Part shown: one piece after another, positions 10,699 to 48,213 of the stretch
How positions within the stretch are numbered: the first letter of the stretch is position 1
Layout: each line of letters opens with the position of its first letter
NCBI GenBank assembly: GCA_945861705.1
Contig: CAMAVM010000013.1
Coordinates: forward strand, 1 to 64,000
Direction of reading: 5' to 3'
DNA from: Methylomagnum ishizawai
GTDB lineage: Bacteria > Pseudomonadota > Gammaproteobacteria > Methylococcales > Methylomonadaceae
DNA length: 64,000 nucleotides
The notes under the pieces: model-generated
Database searches by the model: none
What the model saw: the letters and a program-made list of their open reading frames with translations, nothing else
What the model was told of the DNA's origin: nothing
Program-made: the position numbers and the translations under genes

Positions 10699-11128
10699 AT
10701 CTTATTAAGCTATCAGTCTTAGTAAATACAATTGGTTAGAGTACTTAACTAGTCATTTCGGCACATCAAAGTGCTATTCTTGCGATGACAATTATGCAGA
10801 TACGCTAAATGCGGTTGTGTATTAACACAATCCATCTGCTGCCACATTTATTTAAATAACCAAAAGTGGGGGGTCAGCAAAGCGACTATTAAAACTCAGT
10901 CCAAATTCCCTATAGTCCTCCTATAGATAAATGCCACGCTAATCCTAAAAATAACCGTATCCCGTTCAGATGACCAACCCAACATAGCAAAATGTTGATT
11001 GGTTCTACCGCATTTCTCGATATTCCCAAATCCCTACCCGCGCAGCAACGCACTTGCGTTTTCATTCTGTAGTTACATTTCATCACTTCCACACCAAAAA
11101 AATTAAATCGTACCTGAAACGACGAGGG

Positions 11129-11150
11129 ACTAGGTATTCGTACGGATATT
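11129..11150 (+). promoter_or_regulatory. Conserved motif A, copy 1
   Basis: ACTAGGTATTCGTACGGATA followed by TTAAAC. It is one of four matches to ACTAGGTRKTNGTACGGATA-type sequence in the window; the others are at 11347, 14373 and 14612, all upstream of two plus-strand secreted-protein genes. Probably a regulator-binding site; the regulator is unknown. Confidence 0.6.
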
Positions 11151-11346
11151 AAACACATCTTTTTAGTAATAAATTACTGCACAAGACATCAGTTCTTACT
11201 GAAGCGAGCTTTTAGAGAATCCTTTTAGCTCGAATTACTCAGCAATACCGCTTACTAAAAAGTATTGGAAAGTAAAAATTTGTAATTGGCAAAAAAAGTC
11301 GGTGGATTCACGGAAAACAGCCCAAAAAGGTAGTTTTCCACACCGG

Positions 11347-11479: not shown

Positions 11480-13423
11480 ATGTTAAAGAAAATTATCAAA
11501 GCAACAAGCTTTAGTCGTCAAGAAAAAGCTGTTGCGCGTTATATGAAAGAAGTCAGAGACATCCAGGATGCAAAAATATCGCGCCGGGAATTGTTCAAAA
11601 TGGGCTTGACTGCTGGTGTGGGCGGTTTGACTGCTATCGGCGGAGGCGTTTTTCTGCCTAATTTAGCGGAAGCCAAAGATGGTGACTCTTCTGGAAATAT
11701 TATCAGCCCTCCCTGCACTATGCCCTGGTCTGAACCTTTGCCTATACCCAAAACCCCAGTTTCCGTCGGTGCTTTTTCTGGACCAGAAGGAGATGAAGGC
11801 CAGTGCGAATCAAAGCACACGCGTTTAAATCCAGGTAAAGGTGAATTCGGGGAAGATGAAGAATTCTCTGAAGCGCGTACTGAAAAACACCAACGCTGGG
11901 AAGAATTAGGCGGCTTCGCTGCCTGCACTAAATACGAAATGATGGCTAAGGAACTCGACTGGAATTTTTATTCCGACAGCGATGGACGCGGTTTGAATTC
12001 CAAAGTGTGGGCTTACACAGACCTGAATTCTGATGCTGCCGGTGTTTTGCGTTTCAAAGCACACTACGGCAAGCCCGTTTTGATGCGTATGTACAACGGT
12101 TTACCTAAAGATGGCAGGGATAACCAAGGTTTTGGCATCAACCAAATTTCGCCACATTTGCATAACGCTCACAACCCACCTGAATCCGATGGTGGGCCAC
12201 TGCGTTTTTGGGATTCCGGTAAATGGTACGATTTTTGGTATCCCAATATTCGTGCCGGATTCGCCAGCACCCACAAGAATGGCACTTTCCGTGGTGATAA
12301 GTGGTGTCCAGGTGATTGGCAAGAAACCCAAAGCTCACTTTGGTTTCATGACCATCGCTTCGATTTTACGGCGGCGAATGTTTACAAAGGTATGGCCTCT
12401 TTTTACACCTTGTTTAGCGATGATATTGATCTCGATACCGGTGATGAAAGTACTGGCTTAAGACTACCTAGCGGTGAATACGATATTCCTTTAATGTTTG
12501 CCGACAAGGTGTTCGATCAAAGTGGACAATTGTTTTTTGACACATTTAATCTTGAAGGCATAGTCGGTGACCATCAAACCGTCAACCTTAAGATTAAGCC
12601 TTATCTGGACGTTAAGCGCCGTAAATACCGTTTCCGCTTTTTGGATGCAGGCCCTTCACGGTTTATTGAGCTGTCATTAAGCAATGGTTCCAAAATGACC
12701 CGCATCGCAAACTGTGGGAATTTGCTTCCTAGAGCACAAGTTGTTTCTAGTATCCGTTTAGGTGTGGCAGAACGTGCCGACGTTATTATTGACTTTAGCC
12801 AATATGCGCCAGGTACCGTGATATATCTGGAAAATCGCCTAGAACAAACCGACGGTAAAGGCCCTACTGGAAAGATCTTACCTTCAAGCACTAAAACACA
12901 ATTGCTCAAATTTATTGTGGGTGATGTCGCTGATGATTTCAGCGCACCGTTGGCTACGTTGCAAACACAAGTGATGGTACCGATGCCAAATCGTTCTGCC
13001 AATCCAGTCGTAAAAAAACGCACATTCAGTTTCGATACTAAAAATGGCGCTTGGACAGTTAATGGGGAGTTATTTAACCCGTCAAAAATCAGTGCTTATC
13101 CAGTGGAGGGGACTGCGGAAGAATGGACGTTTACTTCCGGTGGTGGCTGGGCACATCCCATCCATACGCATCATGAAGAATTTCAGGTAATAAGCCGTGA
13201 TGGTGGTAACCCTGCACTCGACGATAAGTCCAGAAAAGATGTGGTCAGGATTGGTAAGGCTGCACAAGGTACATCGAATACAGGCAAGTTGACAGTTTAC
13301 ATGCAGTTTCGTGATTGGTATGGCGATTACCCCTTGCACTGCCACAACGTTGTTCATGAAGACCACGGCATGATGGTTCGCTGGAAGCTGGTGTCTCCAA
13401 CCGACCCAAATGCCGGCAAGTAA
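11480..13423 (+). CDS. Tat-exported multicopper oxidase
   Basis: A 647-residue three-domain multicopper oxidase with a twin-arginine signal (SRRELFKMGL, residues 34-43, then a hydrophobic stretch ending NLAEA). All four copper-binding motifs are present in the usual order: HLHNAH (226-231), WFHDHRFD (289-296), HPIHTHHEEF (559-568) and HCHNVVHEDHGM (620-631), which supplies type 1, 2 and 3 ligands including the axial methionine. An unusually long acidic insertion (about 100-135) precedes the first cupredoxin domain. The SCO gene lies 30 nt downstream, suggesting copper delivery to this enzyme. A GAAGGGAAAATGTC leader gives a good ribosome-binding site. The substrate could be a metal ion, phenolic or nitrogen compound; the sequence does not decide. 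Confidence 0.92.
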   Translation: MLKKIIKATSFSRQEKAVARYMKEVRDIQDAKISRRELFKMGLTAGVGGLTAIGGGVFLPNLAEAKDGDSSGNIISPPCTMPWSEPLPIPKTPVSVGAFSGPEGDEGQCESKHTRLNPGKGEFGEDEEFSEARTEKHQRWEELGGFAACTKYEMMAKELDWNFYSDSDGRGLNSKVWAYTDLNSDAAGVLRFKAHYGKPVLMRMYNGLPKDGRDNQGFGINQISPHLHNAHNPPESDGGPLRFWDSGKWYDFWYPNIRAGFASTHKNGTFRGDKWCPGDWQETQSSLWFHDHRFDFTAANVYKGMASFYTLFSDDIDLDTGDESTGLRLPSGEYDIPLMFADKVFDQSGQLFFDTFNLEGIVGDHQTVNLKIKPYLDVKRRKYRFRFLDAGPSRFIELSLSNGSKMTRIANCGNLLPRAQVVSSIRLGVAERADVIIDFSQYAPGTVIYLENRLEQTDGKGPTGKILPSSTKTQLLKFIVGDVADDFSAPLATLQTQVMVPMPNRSANPVVKKRTFSFDTKNGAWTVNGELFNPSKISAYPVEGTAEEWTFTSGGGWAHPIHTHHEEFQVISRDGGNPALDDKSRKDVVRIGKAAQGTSNTGKLTVYMQFRDWYGDYPLHCHNVVHEDHGMMVRWKLVSPTDPNAGK

Positions 13424-14839: not shown

Positions 14840-16954
14840 ATGAAAACGAAATTTAAGCTAATAACTGCTGCGCTAGCGATGACAAGCTTGGCAGTGCAAG
14901 CGGAATTGAACTTGACTGGGCCGGTTTCTGCGGCAACAGGAAGTTTCCCAACTTATTACCAAGACACAAACGGCTTGGCACTAGATCTTTGCCTTCCTGC
15001 TGTAGGTCCAGAGCGGGCTTCAGGTATGTGTATTTTGGCAGACCTGCCTAGTCCGAATGCGGCCATAACATTCCCCACTAACTTCCCAGACGAATCGTTT
15101 TGGTGGATGGGCGACGGTTCACTTATCTTACCCGACGGCAGCGAAGCCCTCCTGGTCATGGCGATGGAAGCGGCATTTGCCAATGAAGTGCCTATCGCTG
15201 GAGACCAAGTGGTTTTTGCTCGTATTCGTGTCCGTTTTGTGGCTCCCACCACCGGCCACTACACCGTTACTCACCCCTACGGTGTTGAAGAATTTGACGC
15301 AGTGGCTGGGGAACGGGTATTTTTTACCGATGACCACGGTGTCTTATGCGGGTCAGATTTTTCATGCGCCGCCAACGGACGGATAGGGCCATTCCTGAGG
15401 CCATCAGGTCAATTGGGCGGCGGCGGCGAACCTCTGCCGCCTGTTACTGTTGATGGTAAGACTTACATCGCCGATCCAGGCGTTGAAACGACCGTCACTG
15501 GAAGTCCGCACGACACTAACTTCTTCAGAATTGAAGGGCCGGATGGTGTCAGCGAAAACGACTTGTTCACCGTAATGGGCAGGGTACACACTGATCCATT
15601 ACCCAGCAATACCAACGTCGAAAGTGCCACTTACTCAAGGTCGGCAAACGGTGATTCCGTTCAAATAGATGTCCATGCTAAATCGGTAAAAGCACTGGGA
15701 GAACCTGTGCAAAAATTGAAATTATTTGGTGAAGGTATACCCGGTACATCGCTGGTAAAAAACTCAAATAATTCAACGCAATTCTATGGTCAATTAGCAC
15801 TTGATACGAGCAATATACCTGCAGAAATCTATCTTAGCGATCTTAACGAAACGCCGAACAGGATTTTTACGGCAAACTTGGTTGACCACATAACCGTCAA
15901 ACAAGCTGTTTACGATGGTGTTTCACAAACGCTCCATATCGAAGCAGAATCTAGTGATAAGAAATCTGACGACTTACCAATTTTGTCAGCTCAAGGATCA
16001 GATGGCGCTTCTTATGGTCAACTGGTGAATGGAGTCAAAGATGTACCGAGCGTCTCGTTGCCGCCAGCTAAAGTGATTGTCAGGTCTAATAAAGGCGGAA
16101 GAGCTGAACTGATTATTACAACGACAGCAAGCACTCCTGCATTGCCAGGCCTAGTGACTGTTGAAGATCATTTTGATGATGCGAGTTCTCCATTTGCTGT
16201 GATTGACAATGACTCAGATCACGGGAATCAGTGTCATCCAAGTAATGATAAAGTTAAGATTGTTAAACAGCCTGTTCATGGCACTGTCACGGTCAATGAG
16301 GCTGACCAAACCGTGTCTTACACCCAAAATGACAGTGTAAATGGATGGGATACATTCAGTTATTACCTAACCGATGCGGATGGCACAAATGTATCCAACG
16401 TTTCAAAAGTTAATTTTGCAATCACCAATGGAAACCTTCCGCCGGTAGCGAATCCAGACTTTGCTTCAGCAGCCGTTGGTGCCACTATCACTATTGATCC
16501 ATTAACTAATGATACTGATCCAGAAAACGCCGGTCTGACCTTGGTTTCTGTAACGGGTGTAGGTGCGACTAAAGTGGGCAATACGATTAGCTATACCGCA
16601 GCATTGCCTGTTGGGGCTAAAACCATTGAATACACTGTTAGCGACGGTGACAAAACGGCAACTAGCAGCATTACGGTTACCGTTGATGCGGCAGAAGTTG
16701 TGACTGTAGCCGTAGCTGAGTTTAGGACAGGCAAAACGCAATGGCGGATTTCTGGTACTGATACACCAGCAAGGATCGGAGTCGTGATGAGCGTCTACAG
16801 CAACGGTGGCAACTTCCTCTTAGGAACTGCAACGACAGACGTAACTGGTGCTTGGAGCTTTAGAGCTACAGCACCTCAACGCCCCGGCCCTATCGTAGTC
16901 AAAAGCAGTCGTGGTGCCCAATCGTTGCCCTTTAACCTTACTGTCAGGAACTAA
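14840..16954 (+). CDS. Secreted Ig-like/cadherin-like repeat protein
   Basis: A 704-residue exported protein with a Sec signal peptide (MKTKFKLITAALAMTSLAVQA). The N-terminal region (about 25-200) is an unidentified domain with several cysteines. The C-terminal half has bacterial Ig-like modules: DNDSDHGNQCHPSND...KQPVHGTVTV...YTQNDSVNGWDTFSYYLTDADG (about 455-530), then PVANPDFASAAVGATITIDPLTNDTDPENAGLTL (about 535-600). An acidic, Ca-type asparagine/aspartate pattern is typical of such adhesion modules. No sortase, PEP-CTERM or lipobox anchor is visible. It shares its promoter region type with the MCO operon, implying coordinated expression. It may be a cell-surface or matrix protein linked to MCO function; this is inference. 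Confidence 0.75.
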   Translation: MKTKFKLITAALAMTSLAVQAELNLTGPVSAATGSFPTYYQDTNGLALDLCLPAVGPERASGMCILADLPSPNAAITFPTNFPDESFWWMGDGSLILPDGSEALLVMAMEAAFANEVPIAGDQVVFARIRVRFVAPTTGHYTVTHPYGVEEFDAVAGERVFFTDDHGVLCGSDFSCAANGRIGPFLRPSGQLGGGGEPLPPVTVDGKTYIADPGVETTVTGSPHDTNFFRIEGPDGVSENDLFTVMGRVHTDPLPSNTNVESATYSRSANGDSVQIDVHAKSVKALGEPVQKLKLFGEGIPGTSLVKNSNNSTQFYGQLALDTSNIPAEIYLSDLNETPNRIFTANLVDHITVKQAVYDGVSQTLHIEAESSDKKSDDLPILSAQGSDGASYGQLVNGVKDVPSVSLPPAKVIVRSNKGGRAELIITTTASTPALPGLVTVEDHFDDASSPFAVIDNDSDHGNQCHPSNDKVKIVKQPVHGTVTVNEADQTVSYTQNDSVNGWDTFSYYLTDADGTNVSNVSKVNFAITNGNLPPVANPDFASAAVGATITIDPLTNDTDPENAGLTLVSVTGVGATKVGNTISYTAALPVGAKTIEYTVSDGDKTATSSITVTVDAAEVVTVAVAEFRTGKTQWRISGTDTPARIGVVMSVYSNGGNFLLGTATTDVTGAWSFRATAPQRPGPIVVKSSRGAQSLPFNLTVRN

Positions 16955-17083: not shown

Positions 17084-18715
17084 TTAGAAATCTCTGAGCA
17101 AGCTATCATCGGAAGGAATAACCCATGCACTAGGCGGTGATAAGTTGTGGGTCTTCATGTCTACAGTTAAGATGTAAGCACCTTTTGCGCCTTTCCTGTT
17201 ATTAGGTTCGAACTGGAACGGCGGCACAATGTCCACTGAATAATTTTTGATTTCTCCTAACGCGTGGATAAACTTGTCGCGGCTTAAACGTTTGCCGGAG
17301 CGTTTTAATCCTTCAGTCACAAAATTTACCGCCGAACAGGCAATGCGTTGTAAGCCTGGGCTTTGCAAGCTAACTGAATGCTGATTTAGCAGGGCTGCGA
17401 ATTGGCGCATTGCTGGAGCATACAGGTTAAAGGGGGTCGCTAACAGCATCTTGGATGCTGCCAAATCGGGAGTAGCGATAACATTTGCACCTAACATTGC
17501 CAGTAATCCCAATAGTATCGGTTGATGATCGGATTTTGGCATTAATAAATTGAAGTCTTTTAGCTCTTGGGTATTTCCTAAAAAGAAAACAGCATCGGGT
17601 TTTGCTGTTTTCAGTTTTATTAGCTGATTAACATCTTGTTTTGAGTTAGCTTGGGATAAGACGATTTCGGTTGGCGCATTTAAATTATTGCGTTGCACTT
17701 GTTCACGAATCGCCGCGACCACGTTTAAGTTTGTCAACCCATCACTATAAACGATAGTCAGTTTTGGTTTTGCTGTGCTGTTGTCCTTTGGCATCTGGGC
17801 TAGCCAATAATCGACCAAGGCGCGCGATTGATCGGCGTAACTGGGCAGAAAATAGAAAAACGAAGGCGAGGGCGGCGAACTTTCATTAGGTATGAAAGAC
17901 AGCGGGGCGATTACTGGAATTTTTTCGTTCTGCAAGAGTTGATAAATATCCGTAGTGACTTCTGGAAAATATCCTGAGATCAAAGCAAAGGGTTTGGTTT
18001 CAATGATTAATCTCTTGGTGGATGCAAGGATTTCCTCTTTAGTGCCGCCTGAATCCAATGTTGTCAACGTAACTTTGCGTCCATAGATTAGCCCATGTCT
18101 GTTCGATTCGGCAATGCAGGCATCCAGGGTGGCCTTCAGTAGTTTTCCGGTAGCAGCTTGAGTGCTGGTTAGTGGCAATACGGTGCCCAATTGCACTTCA
18201 GATGCAGTTATACCTGCATCGCCATCGCTTGATGACCCTAAAATTTTTATGTATGCAACTAACGCTTGCGCTTGATAGTCCGTGAATCCATATCTAGGCA
18301 TGGCGGCGCTTAAGGGTTTGTCTTGGGCATTAATACCTTTGGTAATTGCGCGGATTAATGTGCTTTCGTCATAAGCCTTTTTGGCAGGTGTGTTGGTAAA
18401 CAAATGCTGCGGACTAATTGTCGGAACATTCAAGCCGCCTTCTTGCTTGCCTTCACCTTTCAGCCCGTGACAATTGGCGCAAGTAAACGTAGTGGCGGAA
18501 ACGGAATCATCAGTAACACCTAAGGTTGTAGTAATTTCATTTTGGCTACCATCGCTACCTTCCCGATAGATTTTGCGTCCTAATAGTTCTATGGCGGTTA
18601 ACGACTCATCGGCATTAGCAACGTCAATAATGCCGCTTGATAATGACATCAACACGATGAGTACTTTAATGCTTAAAGTACACTGTTGATAAGGTCTATT
18701 TATGCTTGCTTTCAC
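17084..18715 (-). CDS. Cytochrome c domain fused to a branched-chain-type ABC substrate-binding protein
   Basis: A 543-residue exported protein with an unusual architecture. A signal segment (about 15-35) is followed by a class I cytochrome c domain with heme motif CANCHG (C79, C82, H83) and a likely axial Met in AAMPRYGF (M139). From about residue 170 a Leu/Ile/Val-type periplasmic binding fold begins: VQLGTVLPLTSTQAATGKLLK, YGRKVTLTTLDSGG, FALISGYFPEVTT, PDAVFFLGNTQELKDF. This fold resembles receptors such as LivJ and related sensor domains. No ABC permease is nearby, so uptake is unlikely. A redox protein with a ligand-binding domain, or an electron acceptor for the MCO system, is more plausible. 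It overlaps the upstream SCO gene by 20 nt and is last in the operon. Confidence 0.88.
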   Translation of the reverse strand: MKASINRPYQQCTLSIKVLIVLMSLSSGIIDVANADESLTAIELLGRKIYREGSDGSQNEITTTLGVTDDSVSATTFTCANCHGLKGEGKQEGGLNVPTISPQHLFTNTPAKKAYDESTLIRAITKGINAQDKPLSAAMPRYGFTDYQAQALVAYIKILGSSSDGDAGITASEVQLGTVLPLTSTQAATGKLLKATLDACIAESNRHGLIYGRKVTLTTLDSGGTKEEILASTKRLIIETKPFALISGYFPEVTTDIYQLLQNEKIPVIAPLSFIPNESSPPSPSFFYFLPSYADQSRALVDYWLAQMPKDNSTAKPKLTIVYSDGLTNLNVVAAIREQVQRNNLNAPTEIVLSQANSKQDVNQLIKLKTAKPDAVFFLGNTQELKDFNLLMPKSDHQPILLGLLAMLGANVIATPDLAASKMLLATPFNLYAPAMRQFAALLNQHSVSLQSPGLQRIACSAVNFVTEGLKRSGKRLSRDKFIHALGEIKNYSVDIVPPFQFEPNNRKGAKGAYILTVDMKTHNLSPPSAWVIPSDDSLLRDF

Positions 18716-19253
18716 CCGTGATATTTTTCAGTGCTGAGATGATTTCATCGGCTTGGGGGAAGCCATAGAGACGCGTCCATTGGTGGTTGCCATCATTGCC
18801 GACAATAATGATATTACTGTGGTCGTTTTTATTAGCGGTGTACACACCAAGATTTTTTAATAATTCGGAAATGATTGTTTTCTCTCCAGTTATAAAACTC
18901 CAATCAGGCTCGGCTTTAAATTTTTTGCTGAATTCCAGCAATCTTTCTGGAGTATCATTAACAGGATCGACACTGATGGTGATTAATTGCACCTTTTGTT
19001 TGCCCAGTTTCTTCTGGACTTGCCTGAAAACAGCGACAGAAAGCGGACAGCTACTGGTGCAAGCGGTGAAAATAAAATTGATTGCGACGGTTTTGTTTTT
19101 GATTAAATCGTTGTGGAACCGATGCCTTTTTCCGGTTTGATCGACTATTGATGCATTAAATTTTGTTTCACTTAAAACAAGTGCTCCTGATGCTATCGCC
19201 ATTATTGGCGATAGCATCAGGAGCATAATAATGATGCTTTTACAGGGTTTCAC
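18696..19253 (-). CDS. SCO1/SenC family copper chaperone (second copy)
   Basis: A 185-residue SCO protein with a Sec signal peptide (MKPCKSIIIMLLMLSPIMAIASG). The copper motif is CTSSCP (C65, C69), and the distal histidine is in NDHSNIIIVG (H145). A thioredoxin fold is evident from TISVDPVNDTPERLLEF. It lies 18 nt after the 521-aa protein gene and overlaps the cytochrome fusion gene, so it is embedded in the giant-MCO operon and probably loads copper into that oxidase. It is a paralogue of the SCO at 13.4-14.1 kb. Confidence 0.93.
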   Translation of the reverse strand: MKPCKSIIIMLLMLSPIMAIASGALVLSETKFNASIVDQTGKRHRFHNDLIKNKTVAINFIFTACTSSCPLSVAVFRQVQKKLGKQKVQLITISVDPVNDTPERLLEFSKKFKAEPDWSFITGEKTIISELLKNLGVYTANKNDHSNIIIVGNDGNHQWTRLYGFPQADEIISALKNITGESKHK

Positions 19254-19271: not shown

Positions 19272-20837
19272 TTAATTACAAAAAACACCGCCTAGTCTGC
19301 CGTGACCAGATTCAGGCCAAGGGTCTAATGGTTCCAGTGCGGCATCTTCATCATCAGGCCACCAGCCACGGGATAGGAAACATAAGTCCTCAAAATTAGC
19401 AGGAATCCAACCTGGCACTGGTTTATTTTTATTGCCGAACACTCTACCTTCAGGGAATATATACTCGCTTACGGGAGCGGTATATTCGCCATAAACTAAA
19501 CCATTAGCTGCCGTTGATGGTGACGAATCGCTTGAGCCATCAATACCGTTAATGCGTGCACGAATTTCTCGGGGTGGCGGCATAAAAACCTGCTGATCGA
19601 CAGTGATCTCAAAACGACCTAAGGGTGGCTTTATTGAAGGTGCTGGGCTTGATAAAAGTCTTTCAGTAAATTTGCCTTCTGCTAATGGTCTTACTGGATC
19701 TAAGGCAAAAACATCTACGTTTCTGCTGGGGTCGGTGGTAAAACCGACAATACGGAAGCGGGTAACTAATGTTTGACCGGGTATTACCGCACCAAACGCG
19801 CCTGCTTTCCCTGGACCCGTTTCTTGATCCAATCCCGGAAACACAGTGCCGCCAGCACCCAGAATTGCCACTTCAATAAACAAGTAGGCAGGATCTTCTC
19901 CTTTATCGGTGTAAATACCTAAATCTGCTTCAAGAGCAGAAGCAGAAATATAAGTGCTATTGGGATCAGCCAGTGTCGGGTCTTTAACCAGGATTCCTGT
20001 ATAAGTCACATAGTCGCCAATTTCAAGGGGAGCCATTTTTTCAGGGTCACAAGCGCCACCACAGGGAGGTGCATCGCTTAAGGCAAATGTCGTACCCATA
20101 GTAAAGCGGCGTAAAGGCTTGCCATCCGTTCCTTTAGGTCTATTTGATGATGGACATTCAGCATCAACCGCAGGCGGTGTGTTTCTAGGCACACACAAAG
20201 GATAACCTGTCGCAGCATGGACGGTAGGGTTGCCCTGATCTGCTTGAAAACGCGGGTCGGCTGATTGTGCTATGCCATAACGACCTGTACCCGTCCCAAT
20301 ATCGGGATCATTCAATCTTACCCGTGCCGACACGGTTGGGTTGGACAATTCGGGGCCGATGAGCAATTCACCAGTGCTGCTGATTTCTTTAATAAATCCG
20401 GAACTGATTTGCAGCGGTATTTGCATGATGTTTGCCAATCCGGCTATGTATTCACCATTGACTATATTGCCAATTAAATCGGCAACATAAGGGAACGGTG
20501 GGGGAGGGGTGTCTTCTAGCGCCAATCCACTTCCCACCGTTGTTGTGGGTAGCTTCATGTCAAAAATAGCTTTCGGTCTTAGGTAAGAACCGGGCATGAC
20601 GATATAACTGTTTTTGGGGATAATGACTTTAGTGCCGTTGACCTTCATGATGGCACCAGCGCGGGCATCACTAGGATTGACGCACCACGAACCATCGCTA
20701 GGCTGGCACATCCTGAATTCTTGTATATAGCCAATAAGCCCAAAGGATGTCGTTGGTACGGGATCGGCGGCGTATGCAAATCCTGAATTGCTTAATAATG
20801 CCATTGCGATCAGCTTTGGCAATGTGAATCTTTTCAT
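19272..20837 (-). CDS. Secreted protein of unknown function in the giant-MCO operon
   Basis: A 521-residue exported protein (signal MKRFTLPKLIAMALLSNSGFAYA). The GGAGG ribosome-binding site sits 7 nt ahead of the ATG at 20837 and decides the start over an earlier TTG. There are no metal or heme motifs. Conserved-looking blocks are VSARVRLNDPDIGTGTGRYG, a central cysteine set (GYPLCVPRN, ECPSSNRPKG, PPCGGACDPEKMAPLEIGDYVTYTG), ALEADLGIYTDKGEDPAYLFIEVA, and a C-terminal GWIPANFEDLCFLSRGWWP. From memory, the ARVRLNDP / CPSSNRP / MAPLEVGDY / EANLGIYT pattern resembles uncharacterised secreted proteins that are common in filamentous fungi; I cannot verify this. Its position between the propeller and SCO genes ties it to MCO function. 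Confidence 0.7.
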   Translation of the reverse strand: MKRFTLPKLIAMALLSNSGFAYAADPVPTTSFGLIGYIQEFRMCQPSDGSWCVNPSDARAGAIMKVNGTKVIIPKNSYIVMPGSYLRPKAIFDMKLPTTTVGSGLALEDTPPPPFPYVADLIGNIVNGEYIAGLANIMQIPLQISSGFIKEISSTGELLIGPELSNPTVSARVRLNDPDIGTGTGRYGIAQSADPRFQADQGNPTVHAATGYPLCVPRNTPPAVDAECPSSNRPKGTDGKPLRRFTMGTTFALSDAPPCGGACDPEKMAPLEIGDYVTYTGILVKDPTLADPNSTYISASALEADLGIYTDKGEDPAYLFIEVAILGAGGTVFPGLDQETGPGKAGAFGAVIPGQTLVTRFRIVGFTTDPSRNVDVFALDPVRPLAEGKFTERLLSSPAPSIKPPLGRFEITVDQQVFMPPPREIRARINGIDGSSDSSPSTAANGLVYGEYTAPVSEYIFPEGRVFGNKNKPVPGWIPANFEDLCFLSRGWWPDDEDAALEPLDPWPESGHGRLGGVFCN

Positions 20838-20874
20838 AACATCCTCCAACCTTGAATTAATTAGTGTTAAAAAT

Positions 20875-22836
20875 TTACTTCTGTCCTACGTTTTGGCTCT
20901 TGGATAAAGGCTCTTGAACCTTAACAATTAACAGTGCTTGCTTGGTAAATTCCAAACCACTGGATTGCGCTTCCACCAGCAGATTAAAACTCCCCGCATG
21001 TGGAAAAGTGACGGCAGCCTGATAAACCCCTGCATCTACTTCTTGTAGCCACGCACGTTTTTGCCAAAGCCCAGGTGGCTCAAACGCCAACAAACGTGCG
21101 TCTTGAATACCTGAGATCGGCTTGCCGGAGGCGGCATCTTGTAACTTAAAACTTAATAAGGTTTCTGTGTTTGCAAACGGCTGTGCTGTTAAAGGCAACA
21201 GTTCCAGTTTAACTTTTGCCTGTTCTTGTTGTTTAGGTCCGGTGGCCTTGCCTTCAAGTTTTGTTGTGAAGCAATGAATAATGCGCGGCTGGTCTAGCAT
21301 CACCGCTACGTCGTAATTGCCTGGTTTTTCTACAGTTACTGGGGCTTCGAATACGCCCTGCGCGGTTTCTTTTAAGCTGCGGTCTAATATCATCAAGGCT
21401 CTTGGAATTCGGCGGTAATTATCCAGCGTCCCCATAGCCACCATCATGCCTTCGACGTAGTAATAAATGGTCTTGCCAGGCGCATTGGCAACCATTACGC
21501 CATTTTGTTCTGGTATCGGCGCGATCATGGCGGCAACACCGACTGAATCGGGCAGGGCAGAAGGCGGTTTTTCGCCAGCTTGAATTTGGGTGACAGACAA
21601 TTCGGCTAATACCCTATTTTGCTTTTCGCTAGATTGGGCAGGCAATTTTTCCAGTTGTTTCCTGTTCACCAGCGCGAACTTTTCCGAGCCTAGCCCCCGA
21701 ACATAGGCATAGTCAGCGGTAAACGTAATCTGGTCGGGTTCTGCGGTCACATTGGCAAAAGCAATTTTCGTATTCGTGGCTGAATCAATCACATACGCTT
21801 TCGCATCGAGTTGATTGACTACCCATACATAACGACCCTGGGGATCAGCGGCGACATCGACCGCGCCACGACCGACTTCAATTTGGGCTTCGTTCGTAAG
21901 TTTAACCGGATCAATAACGCTAAGGGTGTTGTCATTTACGGATGCGACATAAAACCGTTCTGCTTTGTCTACCCAAACCGCTTTTAAGGGCGTATTGCCA
22001 ACCTTTACGTCACCCAGTCTCTTCAAGCTGGCATTTTCGATGATGGATACTGTATTGGCTTGAGTATTCGTTACAACAGCAAACTTACTGTCCGGCGTAA
22101 AACTGATTTGATGTAATCCTTCGTCTACGGTTACAACATTAACTTTAGGTTTTTCGCTCCGATCAATAACGGCAACTTTCGGTGAACCGTCCAAACCCAC
22201 CCATACCGATTGTTCATCAGGGGATAAGGCAATGCGGGTCGGTTTGCTGCTTGCCCCAGTGGAAATTGTTGTCGCTAGACTATGTGTAGTCGTATCAATC
22301 AATGCAACCGCAGCAGCATTCGGCATCGTCACATAAAGCCATTTGCCATCCTTGGTCAACACCCAATCCAAGCCTTGTTCCGGCAATTGCACGATGCCTT
22401 CCAGTTTACTGCTTGATGAGACTTGAGGGTTAATAAACGCAACCGTCTTATCCTGGTTAAGCGTCAACAAAAAATAACTGTTCAGGTCAACATCGGCACG
22501 AGTCGCCAACTGGCCGCTGGAAAAACTCCGTACCTTGGCTTCACAACTGGTTTCGGTGGCGACTTGTTCGGAGCGGCGCAGGGAGAACCAAGCTTTTGGG
22601 CGTAATTGAGTTATCGGTTTTCCGGTTTGTTTTTCATTGAATTTAAGGATTGCTTTTAGCTGTTGACTATCGACAGGATCAGCTTGTTTCCCAACAGGGA
22701 CATTAACCACTTGCATAGCCAAGTCAATCCCCTGGATTTCAACATGTTGACTCACATTTTGCGTGGCTTGTGCCACCAATGGACAAAATGCGGCAAGCAA
22801 CAATAGCTTGGCGGTAGCCCTTATCATAGGAATCAT
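20875..22836 (-). CDS. YVTN-type beta-propeller periplasmic protein
   Basis: A 653-residue exported protein. The signal peptide starts at MIPMIRATAKLLLLAAFCPLVAQA, and an AGGA ribosome-binding site precedes the ATG at 22836. Residues about 120-420 hold repeated beta-propeller blades of the YVTN/cytochrome-D1 type: GKWLYVTMPNAAAVALIDTTT, DEQSVWVGLDGSPKVAVID, DSKFAVVTNTQANTVSIIE, ERFYVASVNDNTLSVIDP, GRYVWVVNQLDAKAYVID. The C-terminal 200 residues form a beta-sandwich-like region. There is no heme motif. Such propellers often act as scaffolds or redox partners. It lies 34 nt after the giant MCO stop and 37 nt before the 521-aa gene, within one operon. Confidence 0.85.
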   Translation of the reverse strand: MIPMIRATAKLLLLAAFCPLVAQATQNVSQHVEIQGIDLAMQVVNVPVGKQADPVDSQQLKAILKFNEKQTGKPITQLRPKAWFSLRRSEQVATETSCEAKVRSFSSGQLATRADVDLNSYFLLTLNQDKTVAFINPQVSSSSKLEGIVQLPEQGLDWVLTKDGKWLYVTMPNAAAVALIDTTTHSLATTISTGASSKPTRIALSPDEQSVWVGLDGSPKVAVIDRSEKPKVNVVTVDEGLHQISFTPDSKFAVVTNTQANTVSIIENASLKRLGDVKVGNTPLKAVWVDKAERFYVASVNDNTLSVIDPVKLTNEAQIEVGRGAVDVAADPQGRYVWVVNQLDAKAYVIDSATNTKIAFANVTAEPDQITFTADYAYVRGLGSEKFALVNRKQLEKLPAQSSEKQNRVLAELSVTQIQAGEKPPSALPDSVGVAAMIAPIPEQNGVMVANAPGKTIYYYVEGMMVAMGTLDNYRRIPRALMILDRSLKETAQGVFEAPVTVEKPGNYDVAVMLDQPRIIHCFTTKLEGKATGPKQQEQAKVKLELLPLTAQPFANTETLLSFKLQDAASGKPISGIQDARLLAFEPPGLWQKRAWLQEVDAGVYQAAVTFPHAGSFNLLVEAQSSGLEFTKQALLIVKVQEPLSKSQNVGQK

Positions 22837-22870
22837 ATCGTCCTCGTTAATATCCGCCGTTAATTTGAGC

Positions 22871-25800
22871 TTAATCAACCCGCAAAATCCCCCACATTCC
22901 ACCTTGGAACTGGAAGTTTTCTTGCACCCTGAATAGGTAATCGCCTGGCACTTCGTTTTTTCCGCCTGCTTTAGTGACTATATTGAAATGTCGGCCAGGC
23001 CCAATGCCACCGATAGCACCCAACAGGGCGGTTTTAATTTTCTTTTCCTCATGTGTTGCTATTGAGGTTGAGTCATTCTTCCACGGCTGATAATCCCAAT
23101 TATGTCCAGATAGTGCAAAAGCATGTTGACGGGAATGCCCATTGGGATGAACCAGCCTAAACCGAATGTCTTCGCCAGCATTGGCTCTAAATACAGGCGT
23201 TTCTGGATCGCCGCAAGCCTTACTGTCGCAGCCAGGATTGGGTGCAGTTGAGCTCAGGGTGTTTCTATAATCCAACTCGTTAAGTGCGTTAAAGTCAGCA
23301 CCGGAAGTTCCTACGCCGTTTCTTGCCCAAAGCGGTTCGGAACGGTAGTTAAACCCTTTTTGCCCGGTGTCTTCGGCATCATCAGCCATCCGGTGATTTG
23401 GCATCGGTTGTTTATTTTGTTGTAAGCTAAGGTCATCCTGGAAGACCACGACGAATTCTCGGAAGGAACGGTCTTTACCCAGCTCATCTAGTGTTTTCAC
23501 GTTAGCGGTGATTTTGGATAATTTATCTGGAAAACTTATCTCCGCATTTTTAGGTTCGATAACTAATGCACCTACCGCACCATGCGAAGATTGTTTGATG
23601 ACATCGCCAAAACTACGTAACGATGCTACCCCAAATTCAATGGGCTTATGACATAAATAAGCTTCATTCGAGCGAAATTTGGTCTTGATAGGACACTCTG
23701 TTTTTTGCTGCTCAGGATTAAAACTGCCAAAGGTTGTTTTATCATATTCTTGACGAGTACCTGCATACCAAATGTATTCGGCAATGTTGTCATCACACGT
23801 ATTAAAATCAGGTGTGCCGACGGATGATACTTTGCGACAGCCAGGTAAGCCGCTCGACGTGCGCTTATCATCTTTTTTTTGTTTTTCATCACTGGCTGAA
23901 CCCACTTTGCCAGGTGCTTCATCTCCACTGATAAAATCCGCTTTGTCAAGATCATCATCTCTACTGTTTAAGCCCACATTGCCACCGCCCATGAATTTGA
24001 CATCATAAGCGACGAGTTGCGGTATTAAATTAATCATGGAAGACATTTGTACTTGGTTAAAATTAAAGCCATTTACTATTGGCGGCATTAAATTGTAACT
24101 ACTGGAATTTGCTAAAACTGCAGGATTTGTGCTTTCCAGAAAATTTTCTGGCAACAGGTTGTGTAAGGTAACTTGGATACAATCACCTGCTGATGCACGG
24201 AGTACCAGCGGTTCGACAGCTTTACCCTCTTCGTAAGCAGTTCTTAACATGCTGACAATTTCATTCGCGCTAAGATGGAAATTGTTGTGAGGATCAATTT
24301 GTTTCTTATTTAATTTAGTTATAACCTTTTTGATGTGATTTTCCTGATGTTCTTCAATCCACTTTTCATCAAGTTCAACAAAAACAATGCCATTCGGATC
24401 AGTAATGTTAAAGCGTTTGTTGTATACCAAGCCGTTATGGCTAGGCAAAATATCTTTCGCTAAAATGGCGACGACATGCTTCTTATGGCTACTGGATTTA
24501 ACAAACTCCTGAAATGGACAAACATTTTTTTTCCAGATGTAATTATTGAAGTACTCTTTATACAAGTCTTTAATTGTATTGATTTTTTTATTAGCGTTAC
24601 GCCCTGTCAAGTCAGGAGCATTAAGCGATAATTCCTCATGTAAATAACTTAATAAATGAGGTATCTTGCTGGGGTCTTTTGCAGATTTTTCCAGTAAGTG
24701 ATTGATAAAAGCTTCCGATTTATAGACAACATCAAATTTGTCGTCAGGGTCTTCTTCGCTCACATCCCATAAGTTTGGAACATCTTCAGTTTGGTTGTTT
24801 TTCTTTGTGGGTAAAACAGCGAGAAATTCATCGATTTTATCGGCTTTAGCCATGACAGCTAATTTGCGTTCCTGGACTTTTTCATTTTGATCATATTTGT
24901 ATTTATTGATTGTTAAATCTGCAAAAGTTTCATTTTTTCCTGGAACACATTTTTTTCCACCATACGCTCTCACTAAACCCCACATACCATCCCAGAAATT
25001 TTCAACACTGGGTGAGCCATACCAATAGTCCGTTACACCAGGGTCGTTTGGCAACTTTACATCCATTTCAAAGTGTTCGGAAATGCCGATTTGTTGTCCG
25101 TTCATGTATCCAGAGTTAAGTGACTTAGGTTCGGCCAGCCATTTAACGCCGTTCATTGAAAAGACATGCTGCTCTTCCTGTGAGCCTTGGATCAGTTGAA
25201 TGCTCAAAGGATCGCACGCAAACGCAGGTAGAACAGGGGTTGAGGGGTCGTCATCCAAGCGCCAAGGCTCGTTCTCACGTAATAGACCAGTGAATTTTTT
25301 TGTCTTGCTTATTTGTTGATCCAATAAGCGGGTTAATTCTTTTCGATCAATGATTTCATTAGGTACATTGTTTTGCAGTTTCCTCATTCTGTCCGAAGCT
25401 GAATCTAGCTGTGAACTATGATGAACTAATGAGCTAAACACATTCGCCATATCGCCTTCAGGAGTTAGCTCTCCTTTGCCATTGCCTAGCGTTGTTTTTT
25501 GATGATACTCAAGGCTGTTCCTGTCTTCCTTGGCAATACGCAACGGAATCGGTTCATTACGGTAGTTAAGTAAACGTGTGCCTGGATCTTCGGTAGAAAT
25601 GCCTTCCGGTTTTGGTTTCAAGCCGTCACGCACATTATGTGGCAGTAGCAGTTCATCCTGCCTGCTCGGCGGGTTGACGGGGCGTAAATCAGCGTTATAC
25701 AGGATCGCAAAATCGGCAAATGCTAGATTATATTCTCGCCGTATCTCATGTTGATGTTCTTCAATTTTTTCATGTGGATGGTCTTTAGGGAAACCAATAT

Positions 25801-26227
25801 TTGCCGCGTAACTGGTTGGACCACCGTCTGGTCTACAAGGATTATCAATAAAACCGCTCAAAGTGGTGTCGCTGCATTTATTCTGTTTGGTATTGACATC
25901 AGCGGGCGAAGCGACCAGTTCGGTCCAAACAGTATTTTTCGGCTCCACAATCAACGCACCATAAAAACCGTGCTGCTGGTGTGAACTGGGGCCGTAGTGG
26001 TCATGGGTGAAGACAGTTCTCATGGTTCTGTCTTCCCACTTATCGTTGAGTACGGGATCGGCCCACCAGCGTTGCACGGTGGTTTGTGCGCCACACCAAG
26101 GGTGATTTTTATCGTTTTCCTCTGCATTGCCTGAGCATTGACCACGGACATCTCTATTAGTGGTTTTGGGTAAGCTATAGGATTTTGCAATTAATGGCTT
26201 ATGCGGTTTGTTATTCCAATCTACCAC
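22871..26227 (-). CDS. Giant multicopper oxidase, segment 3 (C-terminal, after in-frame TAG)
   Basis: A 1,118-residue open frame that continues the same reading frame as segments 1 and 2. Near its N-terminus is the second trinuclear copper motif FTHDHYGPSSHQQHGFYGAL (about residues 73-92), followed by IVEPKNTVWTE. Later cupredoxin-like repeats include QHVFSMNGVKWLAEP, a long charged linker (about 430-690), VLRASAGDCIQVTLHNLLPENF, ASLRSFGDVIKQSSHGAVGALVIEPK, HAFALSGHNWDYQPW and a terminal GGMWGILRVD. There is no signal peptide and no convincing ribosome-binding site before the GTG at 26227. If expressed alone it would stay cytoplasmic and lack most copper ligands. Upstream of the GTG, 14 further codons are open back to the TAG. 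Confidence 0.85.
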   Translation of the reverse strand: MVDWNNKPHKPLIAKSYSLPKTTNRDVRGQCSGNAEENDKNHPWCGAQTTVQRWWADPVLNDKWEDRTMRTVFTHDHYGPSSHQQHGFYGALIVEPKNTVWTELVASPADVNTKQNKCSDTTLSGFIDNPCRPDGGPTSYAANIGFPKDHPHEKIEEHQHEIRREYNLAFADFAILYNADLRPVNPPSRQDELLLPHNVRDGLKPKPEGISTEDPGTRLLNYRNEPIPLRIAKEDRNSLEYHQKTTLGNGKGELTPEGDMANVFSSLVHHSSQLDSASDRMRKLQNNVPNEIIDRKELTRLLDQQISKTKKFTGLLRENEPWRLDDDPSTPVLPAFACDPLSIQLIQGSQEEQHVFSMNGVKWLAEPKSLNSGYMNGQQIGISEHFEMDVKLPNDPGVTDYWYGSPSVENFWDGMWGLVRAYGGKKCVPGKNETFADLTINKYKYDQNEKVQERKLAVMAKADKIDEFLAVLPTKKNNQTEDVPNLWDVSEEDPDDKFDVVYKSEAFINHLLEKSAKDPSKIPHLLSYLHEELSLNAPDLTGRNANKKINTIKDLYKEYFNNYIWKKNVCPFQEFVKSSSHKKHVVAILAKDILPSHNGLVYNKRFNITDPNGIVFVELDEKWIEEHQENHIKKVITKLNKKQIDPHNNFHLSANEIVSMLRTAYEEGKAVEPLVLRASAGDCIQVTLHNLLPENFLESTNPAVLANSSSYNLMPPIVNGFNFNQVQMSSMINLIPQLVAYDVKFMGGGNVGLNSRDDDLDKADFISGDEAPGKVGSASDEKQKKDDKRTSSGLPGCRKVSSVGTPDFNTCDDNIAEYIWYAGTRQEYDKTTFGSFNPEQQKTECPIKTKFRSNEAYLCHKPIEFGVASLRSFGDVIKQSSHGAVGALVIEPKNAEISFPDKLSKITANVKTLDELGKDRSFREFVVVFQDDLSLQQNKQPMPNHRMADDAEDTGQKGFNYRSEPLWARNGVGTSGADFNALNELDYRNTLSSTAPNPGCDSKACGDPETPVFRANAGEDIRFRLVHPNGHSRQHAFALSGHNWDYQPWKNDSTSIATHEEKKIKTALLGAIGGIGPGRHFNIVTKAGGKNEVPGDYLFRVQENFQFQGGMWGILRVD

Positions 26228-26269
26228 CTTACCACCTAGGTGTTTACTGGCTGTTATGCGCTCCCGAAC

Positions 26270-27229
26270 CTAGTCAGGTGAGAATGTACCGTCTTCATAA
26301 TTCCAGCCATTGGCCGAACCGTCAGACGAGGTAACATCAAATTTCACCAAATGAATATGCTGACCGATAGTATCGGTAGGGGTGTAAACTTGAAAATCAT
26401 CCAGATTTAAGACGCTTGGAATTAAATTAGTCGCTTGAAATTGAATGCAATCCCCTGAATTAGCGCGAAAAAACAAGGGTTCTGCAAGCCGTTCGCCAGT
26501 TAGCGTTTTAGCGGCATCTTCTTCAAGAACCGGCATCCGTGCTTGCGGATCATGCCAGCCATATTTATTGACGGTCATATCGAATTCGATATATGCGGCT
26601 TTGTAAAGACGCGGATTAGTACGGTTAACAAGTGTTTGTTTGTTTGCTTCCTCAAGATAATCCGTTGGGCAAGGGTCGGCAAATGGTGCTCCTTGTGCGG
26701 GGGCAAAGCCGTTGACGCGGAAATGTTTGCCAAGATCGAACGCTTTATTAGCGGAATGACCATGAGGATAAGCGGCATTAGCGGTTTCAAAACCCTTACC
26801 TGTCCAGAGGGGCTTCGTGGTAGCCCAATGGCTTTGAGGATTTGCTGGGTCAGTATGCTTAGGCCATTGGGTTTCTTCAGATTTAAAGTTCCATGCAAAC
26901 GATTCCGGTGAATTGGCAGCTTGTAAGACTTTCTTAAATTCATCTTTACACAATGTCCATACTCCTGGGAGCATATTGTCAGGTACGGTGTCGCGCCCTT
27001 GCTTCAAGCTTTCAATAGTGGCTTTATCCCAACCGGCATGGTAAGCCATTGCCAGAATTTCATCTTTCGTGCCACATTGCGGCAATATTTTTACAGTAGC
27101 GGATTCAATTTTCTTCGCTAAAATGAGGTTATTCGGGTCACTGTTCAATGCCCAGGTGCGTTTGGCGACATAACGCGAAGCTTTGTTGCTTTCTCGATCT
27201 CCGTAACCTTCGAGCAGATCTTTTGTCAC
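26270..27229 (-). CDS. Giant multicopper oxidase, segment 2 (between in-frame TAA and TAG)
   Basis: A 319-residue frame starting at a GTG with no visible ribosome-binding site; 8 further codons are open back to the TAA. It carries no signal peptide. The cupredoxin motif GDCIQFQATNLIPSVLNLDDF and the HxH motif QHIHLVKFDVTSSDG (near residue 290) provide the first trinuclear copper histidines. ANGWNYEDGTFSPD then stops at TAG. In-frame codons after the TAG (VRERITASKHLGGKVVDWNN) read as natural continuation. As a separate protein it would be unstable and unexported, so it is best seen as the middle of one interrupted gene. Confidence 0.8.
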   Translation of the reverse strand: MTKDLLEGYGDRESNKASRYVAKRTWALNSDPNNLILAKKIESATVKILPQCGTKDEILAMAYHAGWDKATIESLKQGRDTVPDNMLPGVWTLCKDEFKKVLQAANSPESFAWNFKSEETQWPKHTDPANPQSHWATTKPLWTGKGFETANAAYPHGHSANKAFDLGKHFRVNGFAPAQGAPFADPCPTDYLEEANKQTLVNRTNPRLYKAAYIEFDMTVNKYGWHDPQARMPVLEEDAAKTLTGERLAEPLFFRANSGDCIQFQATNLIPSVLNLDDFQVYTPTDTIGQHIHLVKFDVTSSDGSANGWNYEDGTFSPD

Positions 27230-27253
27230 CGCAGGATTTTTAAGATCAATGTC

Positions 27254-29320
27254 TTAGATAGTGCCCTCGGTAATAATGTGGCGAGATAAGCCGCCGTCTA
27301 GCCATTTGTCGTTTGTACCCGTTGGATGTTTGTTTTCCGCCATATCTAAAGGGGGTTGTGGAGGTCGATGTCCAGGTTCTGCTGCCATAAAGAAAGGATA
27401 GCCACGAAATTCAGCACTGGGTAAAGGGGCTAATGGGTGACCTGGAATAGGAACGATTGCTGGATTGGGTGTGCCACCCGTTATTTCTTTATCGGGCAGA
27501 TTTCTTCCTTTTGGATTGGCTTTTTCGTCAAATAATCCCGGTCTGCCATCCTCAAATACATCATGATTCCGCCACAGCTCCCACATCCCCGCCGCAAAAT
27601 GTGGATACAAGTGGCAATGGAAAATAGCATCGCCTACGGTTAAATTGTGGTTGCCACCGCCACCGTATTGAATATCGTAAGTGTAGGACGAACCTGGGGA
27701 AATAGTTTGCGAATCCAGGTAATTAGCATTGGGATCGTTTTTATCCTGCAACCATTGGTGCGCGTGTAAATGGAAAACATGGGTTTCCTTTGGTCCCGCG
27801 TGGATATTACGGAAACGCACTGGATCACCAAGATAAGCATGATGCACGTTTGATGGATCATCGGGGTATAAGGCTTCTACTTCTTTGCCATCCTGGTCGC
27901 GGCGTACAATCATCGCTGGATCGCCATTAACCCAAGAGCTTAAAAAGAACTCTTCCAGTTTGCAATCAGGGCAATCTTTTCCTGGCCCTATTTTTTTCTT
28001 GTTAGCAAGTACCACGGAACCTGCACCAGATGAGCCGTAGTTGATTGCCATGCCATCCGCAATCGCGCTGATCGGATTGCCCTCATCGGACAATTCTGCA
28101 AATGCTTGGAATACTTTATTCTCATCATGAAAAATGGTGGTGAATTCACGGAATGACATGCCGCAACTAGAGCCGGGCGATTGTTTTGAGCAGTCCATAC
28201 CCGATTCACTCAAATTACCGGATGAATTCGTAGGATTATCCTGATAGATAATAGCGTTAAGGTCGGAGTGTATAATCTGATTGTGAGCATCCAAAATAGC
28301 CAGTTTTTCATATTGTAAATCATCATATAGTTGATTAGTGCTTGATTTTGCAGCAACTAATACATCATGCGTTACTTGTGAACGATACCAGATGGAATCT
28401 TTGGGTTCGACATTGACTGAACCAAACAACCCCAAACCTAGTTGGCCGCCATCACCTTCGCCACCCGCCAATGCACCGGTGGAATAGAAAAAATACCCAC
28501 CTTCTTGCTGGGCATACCAGGTATACGTTTTGCTCGCCCCAGGTTCAGCTAGTGACGATGGATTATTGCCCACATTAGCACCGTCTGACTCCATGTTTGC
28601 ATAATCCAAACCATTAACGTGTATGGATGCCGCCCGTGTGGTGGGGTAATCAGGTTCTTCTTGGCGTGGAAATGGGAACGCTGGATGTTGGGTGCTTATA
28701 CTATTACGTGGCGGCGTAGAGAGATCAGTTGCAGTGGGGTCACCTGGTTTGGTCGCTTGAATGGAATGTCTTTGTACGCCGCCATCAGGAAAATCAGCGC
28801 GTTGAAATGTAGTATGTACGGTTGGTAGTGGCGATAATAAATTCCAAAATTTTACTTGTAGATAATTGCATTCGTTAACTCGAAGCACTAAGGGGCGAGG
28901 TCTTTTGTCGTCTTTAAGCCTAACCCTGCCTTTCAATGCTGCCATTTCTGCATCTGATCGAGAAGAAATAGTCTTTCCATGTTCATCGACAACATCTTTT
29001 CGTAGTGCATACACCATCCCCGCTGGATTAAATGCGCCAAAGCGATTGAAAGTTATGATTTGTTCTAATGCAATGACTTCGGCAGTAATGGTATTGGAGC
29101 TGTTTTGTGAGCTATTTTGGTCGCACTGCTTAGACTGCTGGGAGGAGCTTGCTTGCTCTCCACTCGGCGGGTGGTCTGTTTTTCCATCCGTCAAACATCC
29201 CGCTATGAGTGCGGCTGTCACATAACAGATAAGCAGAAGGCACTTATAAGGCGATTTTGTTTTAGACTGAACTTTTGTTGAAAACAGTCCATTGTGATTA
29301 TGGTGATGTCGTGCTGTCAT
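27254..29320 (-). CDS. Giant multicopper oxidase, segment 1 (N-terminal lipoprotein part)
   Basis: A 688-residue segment. The ATG at 29320 has a strong GAGGGG ribosome-binding site; a further ATG 18 codons upstream lacks one. A lipoprotein signal ends in LIAGC (Cys42, next residue Leu), suggesting outer-membrane anchoring after a serine/glutamine-rich linker. Cupredoxin features follow: AASIHVNGLDYANMESDGANVG, GGYFFYSTGALAGGEGDGGQ, HVFHLHAHQW (motif C) and FHCHLYPHFAAGM (motif D, type 1 copper with axial Met). The segment ends HIITEGTI at TAA. It is the first gene of a roughly 12-kb operon running to 17.1 kb. Expressed alone it would be an exported protein with a type 1 site but an incomplete trinuclear site. 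Confidence 0.85.
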   Translation of the reverse strand: MTARHHHNHNGLFSTKVQSKTKSPYKCLLLICYVTAALIAGCLTDGKTDHPPSGEQASSSQQSKQCDQNSSQNSSNTITAEVIALEQIITFNRFGAFNPAGMVYALRKDVVDEHGKTISSRSDAEMAALKGRVRLKDDKRPRPLVLRVNECNYLQVKFWNLLSPLPTVHTTFQRADFPDGGVQRHSIQATKPGDPTATDLSTPPRNSISTQHPAFPFPRQEEPDYPTTRAASIHVNGLDYANMESDGANVGNNPSSLAEPGASKTYTWYAQQEGGYFFYSTGALAGGEGDGGQLGLGLFGSVNVEPKDSIWYRSQVTHDVLVAAKSSTNQLYDDLQYEKLAILDAHNQIIHSDLNAIIYQDNPTNSSGNLSESGMDCSKQSPGSSCGMSFREFTTIFHDENKVFQAFAELSDEGNPISAIADGMAINYGSSGAGSVVLANKKKIGPGKDCPDCKLEEFFLSSWVNGDPAMIVRRDQDGKEVEALYPDDPSNVHHAYLGDPVRFRNIHAGPKETHVFHLHAHQWLQDKNDPNANYLDSQTISPGSSYTYDIQYGGGGNHNLTVGDAIFHCHLYPHFAAGMWELWRNHDVFEDGRPGLFDEKANPKGRNLPDKEITGGTPNPAIVPIPGHPLAPLPSAEFRGYPFFMAAEPGHRPPQPPLDMAENKHPTGTNDKWLDGGLSRHIITEGTI

Positions 29321-42900: not shown

Positions 42901-43727
42901 GTTGTGATTTGCGGGTAGGCTATAGTTGGTTACACTCCACAGGGGCATTAGTAGGTCAAGGCTCAGGTTGTGATTTGCGGGTAGGCTATAGTTGGTTACA
43001 CTGTTATTGGCTTTATACCACATATATATACTGTTGTGATTTGCGGGTAGGCTATAGTTGGTTACACTAATTTAAAAGATGCACCGAGCCAAAGACAGGT
43101 TGTGATTTGCGGGTAGGCTATAGTTGGTTACACTTGAAAAATAAACATTAGTAGTCGCCCTTCTGTTGTGATTTGCGGGTAGGCTATAGTTGGTTACACT
43201 ACTTGTCGCCGCCCCACACCGCCTCGTTGGTTGTGATTTGCGGGTAGGCTATAGTTGGTTACACTGGATTTGGCTATTCGCGAACTTATTAAGCGGTTGT
43301 GATTTGCGGGTAGGCTATAGTTGGTTACACTTTGCCACTATAACGGGACGTATTGGCACGGGGTTGTGATTTGCGGGTAGGCTATAGTTGGTTACACTTA
43401 CAAAAAAGCGCTGAACCCTTTGACGTGGTTGTGATTTGCGGGTAGGCTATAGTTGGTTACACTACTTGTTAAATGTGGTCAACCAGCTCACAGGTTGTGA
43501 TTTGCGGGTAGGCTATAGTTGGTTACACTATACCGTATGTTGCTCGCGCTAACCCTATCGTTGTGATTTGCGGGTAGGCTATAGTTGGTTACACTTATCG
43601 GTATTTCGTTTAGATAGCACATGTCGTTGTGATTTGCGGGTAGGCTATAGTTGGTTACACTTTGAGATTTTTATCCAAAATTATGAGTTACGTTGTGATT
43701 TGCGGGTAGGCTATAGTTGGTTACACT
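42901..43727 (+). CRISPR. Type II-C CRISPR array, 13 repeats and 12 spacers
   Basis: Thirteen identical 36-bp repeats (starting GTTGTGATTTGC, ending TTGGTTACACT) begin at 42901, 42967, 43033, 43099, 43165, 43230, 43296, 43363, 43428, 43494, 43560, 43626 and 43692. Spacers are 29-31 bp, all different. Repeat sequence is invariant even at both ends, so the degenerate end is not visible. Plus-strand transcription is inferred from pairing with the tracrRNA candidate (see 48223). Each repeat contains TTGCGG, then 16 bp, then TACACT at its very end, a possible weak promoter like those built into Neisseria type II-C repeats. The array lies 51 bp from the cas2 stop. Confidence 0.98.
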
Positions 43728-43778
43728 TAGCCCTTTCGTAATAGCTTGTTTACAAAGGAGTAGTTGTCGTTTTTGCAG

Positions 43779-44108: not shown

Positions 44109-44125
44109 GGTTGCCGCAGGGTTTC

Positions 44126-48193: not shown

Positions 48194-48213
48194 TTTTAAC
48201 CTTCGTCTATAAT
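48186..48213 (+). promoter_or_regulatory. Predicted sigma-70 promoter of the tracrRNA, overlapping cas9 start
   Basis: TTGCCC (48186-48191), a 16-bp spacer and TATAAT (48208-48213), pointing right. Expected transcript start near 48220, just before the anti-repeat. It overlaps the cas9 start codon and its ribosome-binding site on the opposite strand. Confidence 0.65.

Follow-up and report, generated by a model that had tools for sequence, protein, structure and literature searches.

An MnxG-like giant multicopper oxidase gene of a methanotroph with two internal stop codons, a candidate for very recent loss of function

The gene considered here occupies positions 22871-29320 on the minus strand of the window, i.e., positions 1 to 64,000 of contig CAMAVM010000013.1 (GCA_945861705.1; the genome is termed G000 below). 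Its translation comprises 2,150 positions, namely, 2,149 codons and a terminal stop at codon 2150, and the only internal stops in the frame are a TAA at codon 689 (27256-27254) and a TAG at codon 1017 (26272-26270), which delimit segments 1 to 3. A preliminary description of this DNA had portrayed a single frame broken by these two codons alone, free of frameshifts and with its four copper motifs divided among the segments. Translation of 22871-29320 bears out the first point, and a single tblastn alignment to the uninterrupted copy in G001, a genome of the same genus, passes both stops without leaving the frame (29236-26237, 77% identity). Segment 3 aligns in that same frame to L009, the nearest copy found, from the Methyloglobulus metagenome-assembled genome (MAG) P-RSF-IL-05. 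The motifs, too, are distributed as claimed, with HLHAH and HCH in segment 1, HIH in segment 2, and HDH in segment 3. The features of the gene are as follows.

22871-29320, minus strand: MnxG-like giant multicopper oxidase gene, one frame with two internal stops (translation, profile and structure matches)
29195-29209, minus strand: lipobox-like LIAGC (codons 38-42), predicted lipoprotein signal of segment 1, recognized by eye
27752-27781, minus strand: copper motif HVFHLHAHQW, segment 1
27581-27625, minus strand: copper motif IFHCHLYPHFAAGMW (type 1 Cys; HCH..H...M), segment 1
27254-27256, minus strand: TAA at codon 689, an internal stop; the 74 relatives have 15 residue types here, and L009 has Glu
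26333-26362, minus strand: copper motif QHIHLVKFDV, segment 2
26270-26272, minus strand: TAG at codon 1017, an internal stop; the residue is Glu in L009-L012 and in 23 of the 74 relatives
25967-26011, minus strand: copper motif FTHDHYGPSSHQQHG (HDH), segment 3

On the evidence of sequence comparison, the frame is a homologous gene, far beyond chance, and not an accidental open frame; it belongs to the MnxG-like superfamily of giant multicopper oxidases and is a predicted lipoprotein. Homology to MnxG over the length is recovered in several searches, most of them, the fold comparison included, made on the relative L009. The frame, when read through, carries all four His-X-His copper motifs and the type 1 Cys; in an alignment of 35 relatives the His-X-His pairs and this Cys do not vary, and the last His of HLHAH hardly does. 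The ends of L009-L012 are likewise lipobox-like by eye, and the absence of an apparent signal sequence from segments 2 and 3, as first described, is upheld on inspection by eye. The accompanying claim that neither has a clear ribosome-binding site stands for segment 2, where none is seen by eye, but has to be softened for segment 3, in which a weak Shine-Dalgarno-like AGGTGG sits 4 nt upstream of the starting GTG at 26227. Gene calling on G000 would yield three separate fragments for the oxidase.

The oxidation of manganese is associated with giant MnxG-like oxidases. The ancestral function of the present version would have been the oxidation of a metal, probably Mn(II), with O2; we only infer manganese as the substrate, because the uninterrupted methanotroph copies L009 and L010 score outside the MnxG equivalog (NF041487), with 833 and 847 bits against a curated cut-off of 3,100. 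Segments 1 and 3 of the window copy, the two that were scored, reach 387 and 302 bits. Within the library searched, no paper mentions both a multicopper oxidase and Methyloglobulus.

A scan of genome contigs with segment 2 recovered 260 relatives, the best 80 of which were kept; 74 of these (all but L013, L014, L019, L029, L030, and L040) were fully aligned. The alignment of homologues proposed in the preliminary description shows a sense codon at both stop sites in 74 of 74, i.e., neither stop position is common to any relative. The first site is variable, with 15 residue types and Glu in 10 relatives, while the second has Ala in 31, Glu in 23, Ser in 9, and other residues in 11. The L009 copy, a single open frame of 2,283 amino acids (aa) with no internal stop, has Glu at both; Methylomonas fluvii is another source of an uninterrupted relative. 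In L013, L019, and L029 the frame that contains segment 2 is still open at the 3' limit of the available sequence, as it is at the 5' limit in L037. Comparison with ten reference copies gave odd rows in 4 of the 80 loci: L030 has a frameshift in its second half (about 11100-11260); L040, from a Jannaschia MAG, has an in-frame TAG at 7861, a position at which two relatives carry Glu; in L014 a stop falls inside a poorly matching stretch upstream of its start; and L043 shows only a longer alignment. The two broken relatives, L030 and L040, both come from MAGs or uncultured records. Across the order, 28 of 301 genomes (G000 included) match the oxidase, and among the matches listed, stops lie well inside the gene for G000 alone. 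Three further genomes (G503, G472, and G676) have one stop each in the C-terminal match; these are presumed to be terminal stops, given that in G000, too, the C-terminal match takes in the terminal codon. In a sample of the phylum, 4 of 398 genomes (G000 included) match the MnxG model, none above the cut-off.

The locus presents two stops, uninterrupted relatives, an otherwise unchanged gene, and other broken genes in the same genome. Orthologues are uninterrupted and the stops lie ahead of essential motifs, as in a nonsense pseudogene. On balance, we consider it fairly probable that the oxidase has lost its function very recently, perhaps with the change still polymorphic. Both the loss and its recency are what we infer rather than see. 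The ancestral gene would have encoded a functional, single-polypeptide MnxG-like giant multicopper oxidase lipoprotein, in which two point changes would have created nonsense codons in this lineage, by fixation or as a polymorphism. Translation is then predicted to stop after codon 688, and the exported lipoprotein so made would keep two His-X-His motifs of four along with the type 1 Cys; lacking HIH and HDH, this product could form no trinuclear copper site. Segments 2 and 3 have neither apparent export signals nor good start sites. The preliminary description had offered inactivation, assembly error, and readthrough as explanations; the first two remain, whereas readthrough, with no stop shared by any relative, finds no support. 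The strict frame retention over 6 kb that it stresses is nothing out of the ordinary, as any very recent nonsense change would show the same.

Other genes of G000, a 92% complete draft of 2.45 Mb in 52 contigs, are broken as well. When 747 open frames of G001 (0.98 Mb) were compared with 1.148 Mb of G000, 225 matched open reading frames (ORFs; 77,633 codons) were obtained. Eleven of these were flagged, and four were judged truly broken, namely, the oxidase and the first three genes below; the fourth gene in the list comes from a reference-free scan.

L120, 9302-10435 (contig C2 of G000): LysM protein gene with one mid-gene TAA at 9848, identity about 80% both before and after it; G001 has Glu
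L122, about 8170-8800 (contig C3 of G000): beta-carbonic anhydrase, TAA at 8302 and a frameshift further on; Glu in G001, Asp in a paralogue
L101, 1-2520: TPR protein located where a contig begins, with a TAA and two frameshifts; the aligned residue is Lys in a more distant G001 protein, 43-65% identity
L110, about 15621-16526: DUF6851 gene, the Pfam match continuing across a TAA

The remaining seven flagged ORFs (window 18850, L101 4701, L205, L102, L115, L117, and L194) were dropped by judgement: in most, the stops lie near the alignment start, as in start extensions, while L102 has eight stops (wrong frame), L117 has poor identity, and L194 has one stop at column 18 of 447, probably also a start extension. 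The reverse comparison flagged 5 of 238 matched ORFs in G001 (80,325 codons). Four of these look like start or end effects or a doubtful frame, with stops near the start (L101/L138, L128/L162, and L117/L177) or near the end (L104/L156); the fifth, L196/L091, has two TGA codons in a 160-aa frame that is perhaps no gene. The reference-free scan, which uses coding scores to find split genes, gave four candidates in G000 and none in G001; at other thresholds it gave 29 rows in G000 (28 distinct sites, one lying in an overlap) and 4 in G001, most of them ordinary gene boundaries by eye, and with these latter settings it is not sensitive, since neither the TAG of the oxidase nor the stop in the carbonic anhydrase was picked up.

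Counting stops and frameshifts together, eight lesions fall in four genes, and random placement yields at least three multiply hit genes with a simulated P of ~1e-4 (the length list includes one oxidase piece, 915 codons extra on about 79,000). This clustering is unlike scattered base errors, and the frameshifts would not be rescued by stop reading, both of which favor gene decay; it is the concentration of lesions in few genes of one genome that tilts us toward a real inactivation.

The age of the damage was gauged in an alignment with 19 relatives. At 249 otherwise invariant columns, the window copy alters none, while 14 other copies tested alike alter 0 to 9, and hence the nonsense changes would be very recent. 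Likewise, where L010-L012 agree (992 columns), 30 replacements are peculiar to the window copy versus 34 to L009. No replacement excess of the kind left by relaxed selection in a pseudogene is seen, so that only a very recent event fits. Estimates of dN/dS by NG86 were of no use, as dS is saturated.

These same counts constrain the proposed loss of function, and several observations weigh against it. Under neutrality, ~1.9 changes at invariant columns are expected per nonsense change (1,629 versus 848 targets); if both stops arose after function was lost, ~3.8 such changes would be expected and none is seen (Poisson P of 0.02). If only the second stop did, the corresponding P is 0.15, and the relative rate of replacements gives P values of 0.015 and 0.096 for the two cases. 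So the zero count leaves the stops as very young, not real, or tolerated. Further, the LysM gene is an unlikely one to lose, being matched in 58 of 61 genomes (weakly in G027 and G044); among its long matches the stop is found in G000 alone, and G044 has a TGA listed in a match that is short and weak. The stops taken alone cluster weakly (P of 0.07 for the oxidase pair), and the operon partners of the oxidase are open and conserved.

The chief contender is a consensus error in what is probably a metagenome-assembled draft, in which case the gene would be intact and both stops wrong base calls. We regard this as unlikely, if far from negligible. The draft status of G000 and the pristine state of the rest of the oxidase gene are in keeping with it, and the lone TAA in a near-universal LysM gene is just what a base-calling error would look like. 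Moreover, four of the five stops that can be aligned to a G001 protein fall at Glu (the two in the oxidase and those of the LysM protein and carbonic anhydrase; that of the TPR protein falls at Lys), while Glu accounts for 15% of uniform nonsense targets in the oxidase gene and 52% of G>T/C>A targets. The simplest reading of this bias is a G:C-to-T:A type of change, which could be mutation or artefact. A mutator arising by loss of mutM or mutY was considered and set aside, as a gene for a MutM-type Fapy-glycosylase (272-aa frame) and two for HhH-GPD proteins are open (217- and 352-aa frames, the longer assigned to mutY solely from its length; mutT lay outside this check). Base-calling errors, however, sit poorly with the gathering of stops and frameshifts in few genes, with the truly broken genes numbering only 4 of 225 matched ORFs (11 flagged), and with the lack of any stop in the 68 ABC and response-regulator domain matches of G000.

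Readthrough or local recoding, in which UAA and UAG would be read as an amino acid (Glu by position) to give full-length oxidase at a low level, is in our view improbable. The downstream segments are conserved as in uninterrupted relatives, the TAG of L040 also stands where two relatives have Glu, and Belinky et al. 2021 (PMC7918605) argue that a stop within the frame of a bacterial gene often does not mark a pseudogene; the oxidase fits that ordinary background. Nevertheless, the positive evidence comes down to Glu in a relative at four of five stops, and no relative among the 74 conserves a stop position. None of the 26 tRNA loci found has a stop-reading anticodon, in a set that is without some isoacceptors; folds around the stops do not exceed those of shuffles (z of -0.59 and -0.46), and no Rfam match appears up to an E value of 0.1. 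Frameshifts in two other stopped genes lie beyond rescue by stop reading, and, read with the ordinary code (table 11), nearly all 225 matched ORFs stay open, which also removes a global change of code. Readthrough gains no support from the single-gene relatives, the split copper site, or the unshared stops. Its narrower form, that an unknown suppressor in this methanotroph lineage decodes UAA and UAG in some genes as an amino acid (Glu by position), strikes us as very improbable; were it true, the oxidase and the LysM protein would still be made in full at a low level.

Least credible of all is a genuine division into three subunits, each translated on its own, which then assemble. The TAA does coincide with a domain boundary (L009 residue 694, model residue 620): the strand at 612-619 precedes it, and a helical stretch follows that most of the non-methanotroph relatives shown either lack or have in shorter form. 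Against this, none of the relatives is divided at that point, the TAG (model residue 948) comes where the helix at 946-962 begins, close behind the HIH motif, segments 2 and 3 are without apparent export signals, their ribosome sites are absent by eye or weak, respectively, and the single-gene relatives, split copper site, and unshared stops disfavor such an arrangement.

The oxidase gene heads a conserved operon, and its four downstream partners, for which the match counts are lower bounds as the 80 loci differ in length, are all open in the window.

20875-22902, minus strand: beta-propeller (YVTN-type) protein with a YtkA-like end below cut-off; match in 67 of 80 loci
19272-20849, minus strand: operon protein of 525 aa, no Pfam or NCBIfam match; match in 4 of 80 loci, of which three are from methanotrophs
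18696-19253, minus strand: SCO1/SenC protein; match in 63 of 80 loci
17084-18715, minus strand: cytochrome c and periplasmic binding protein fusion; match in 57 of 80 loci

Within the signal-peptide part of the SCO1 gene lies a perfect 20-bp inverted repeat with a 4-nt loop (19182-19225). Promoter and terminator scans returned about as many matches as chance predicts. Elsewhere in the window are a second, smaller multicopper oxidase (11480-13423; Cu-oxidase_2 match), which is open, and a CRISPR-Cas9 locus (42901-48304, minus strand) with a Cas9 of 1,068 aa (HNH and RuvC), Cas1, a 109-aa frame in the place of Cas2 (by position), and an adjoining array of 13 repeats at ~66-nt spacing.

Taking these findings together, we propose that a methanotroph branch of the giant oxidases, with a conserved operon and a patchy distribution, may here be caught at or near the moment of loss. 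The case also serves as a warning that stops in draft genomes need read support.

Several parallels are offered by known versions. L009 shares the operon of the window copy, with 77% identity in segments 1 and 2 and 54-66% in segment 3, but differs in being open throughout. The MnxG proteins of Pseudomonas (NF041487; L042 and L065) show full-length homology and conserved His-X-His copper motifs, and their loci also match the propeller, SCO1, and cytochrome/binding protein; however, they score 3,867 and 3,873 bits against the equivalog model, as opposed to 833 for L009 and 847 for L010, and the window copy has two stops. P. putida GB-1 is described as oxidizing Mn(II) with MnxG and McoA (PMC11930936). 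The Bacillus MnxG (PDB 9bxa) is the best solved relative of L009 by sequence (E value of 3.7e-107) and the best fold match to its N-terminal half (Foldseek E value of 3.3e-35, template modeling scores of 0.46/0.42), for which the predicted structure has a mean predicted local distance difference test score of 72.7. Although 9bxa is shorter (1,227 aa), is part of the Mnx complex according to its entry title, and has only ~21% identity in the fold alignment, it carries the copper motifs in the same order.

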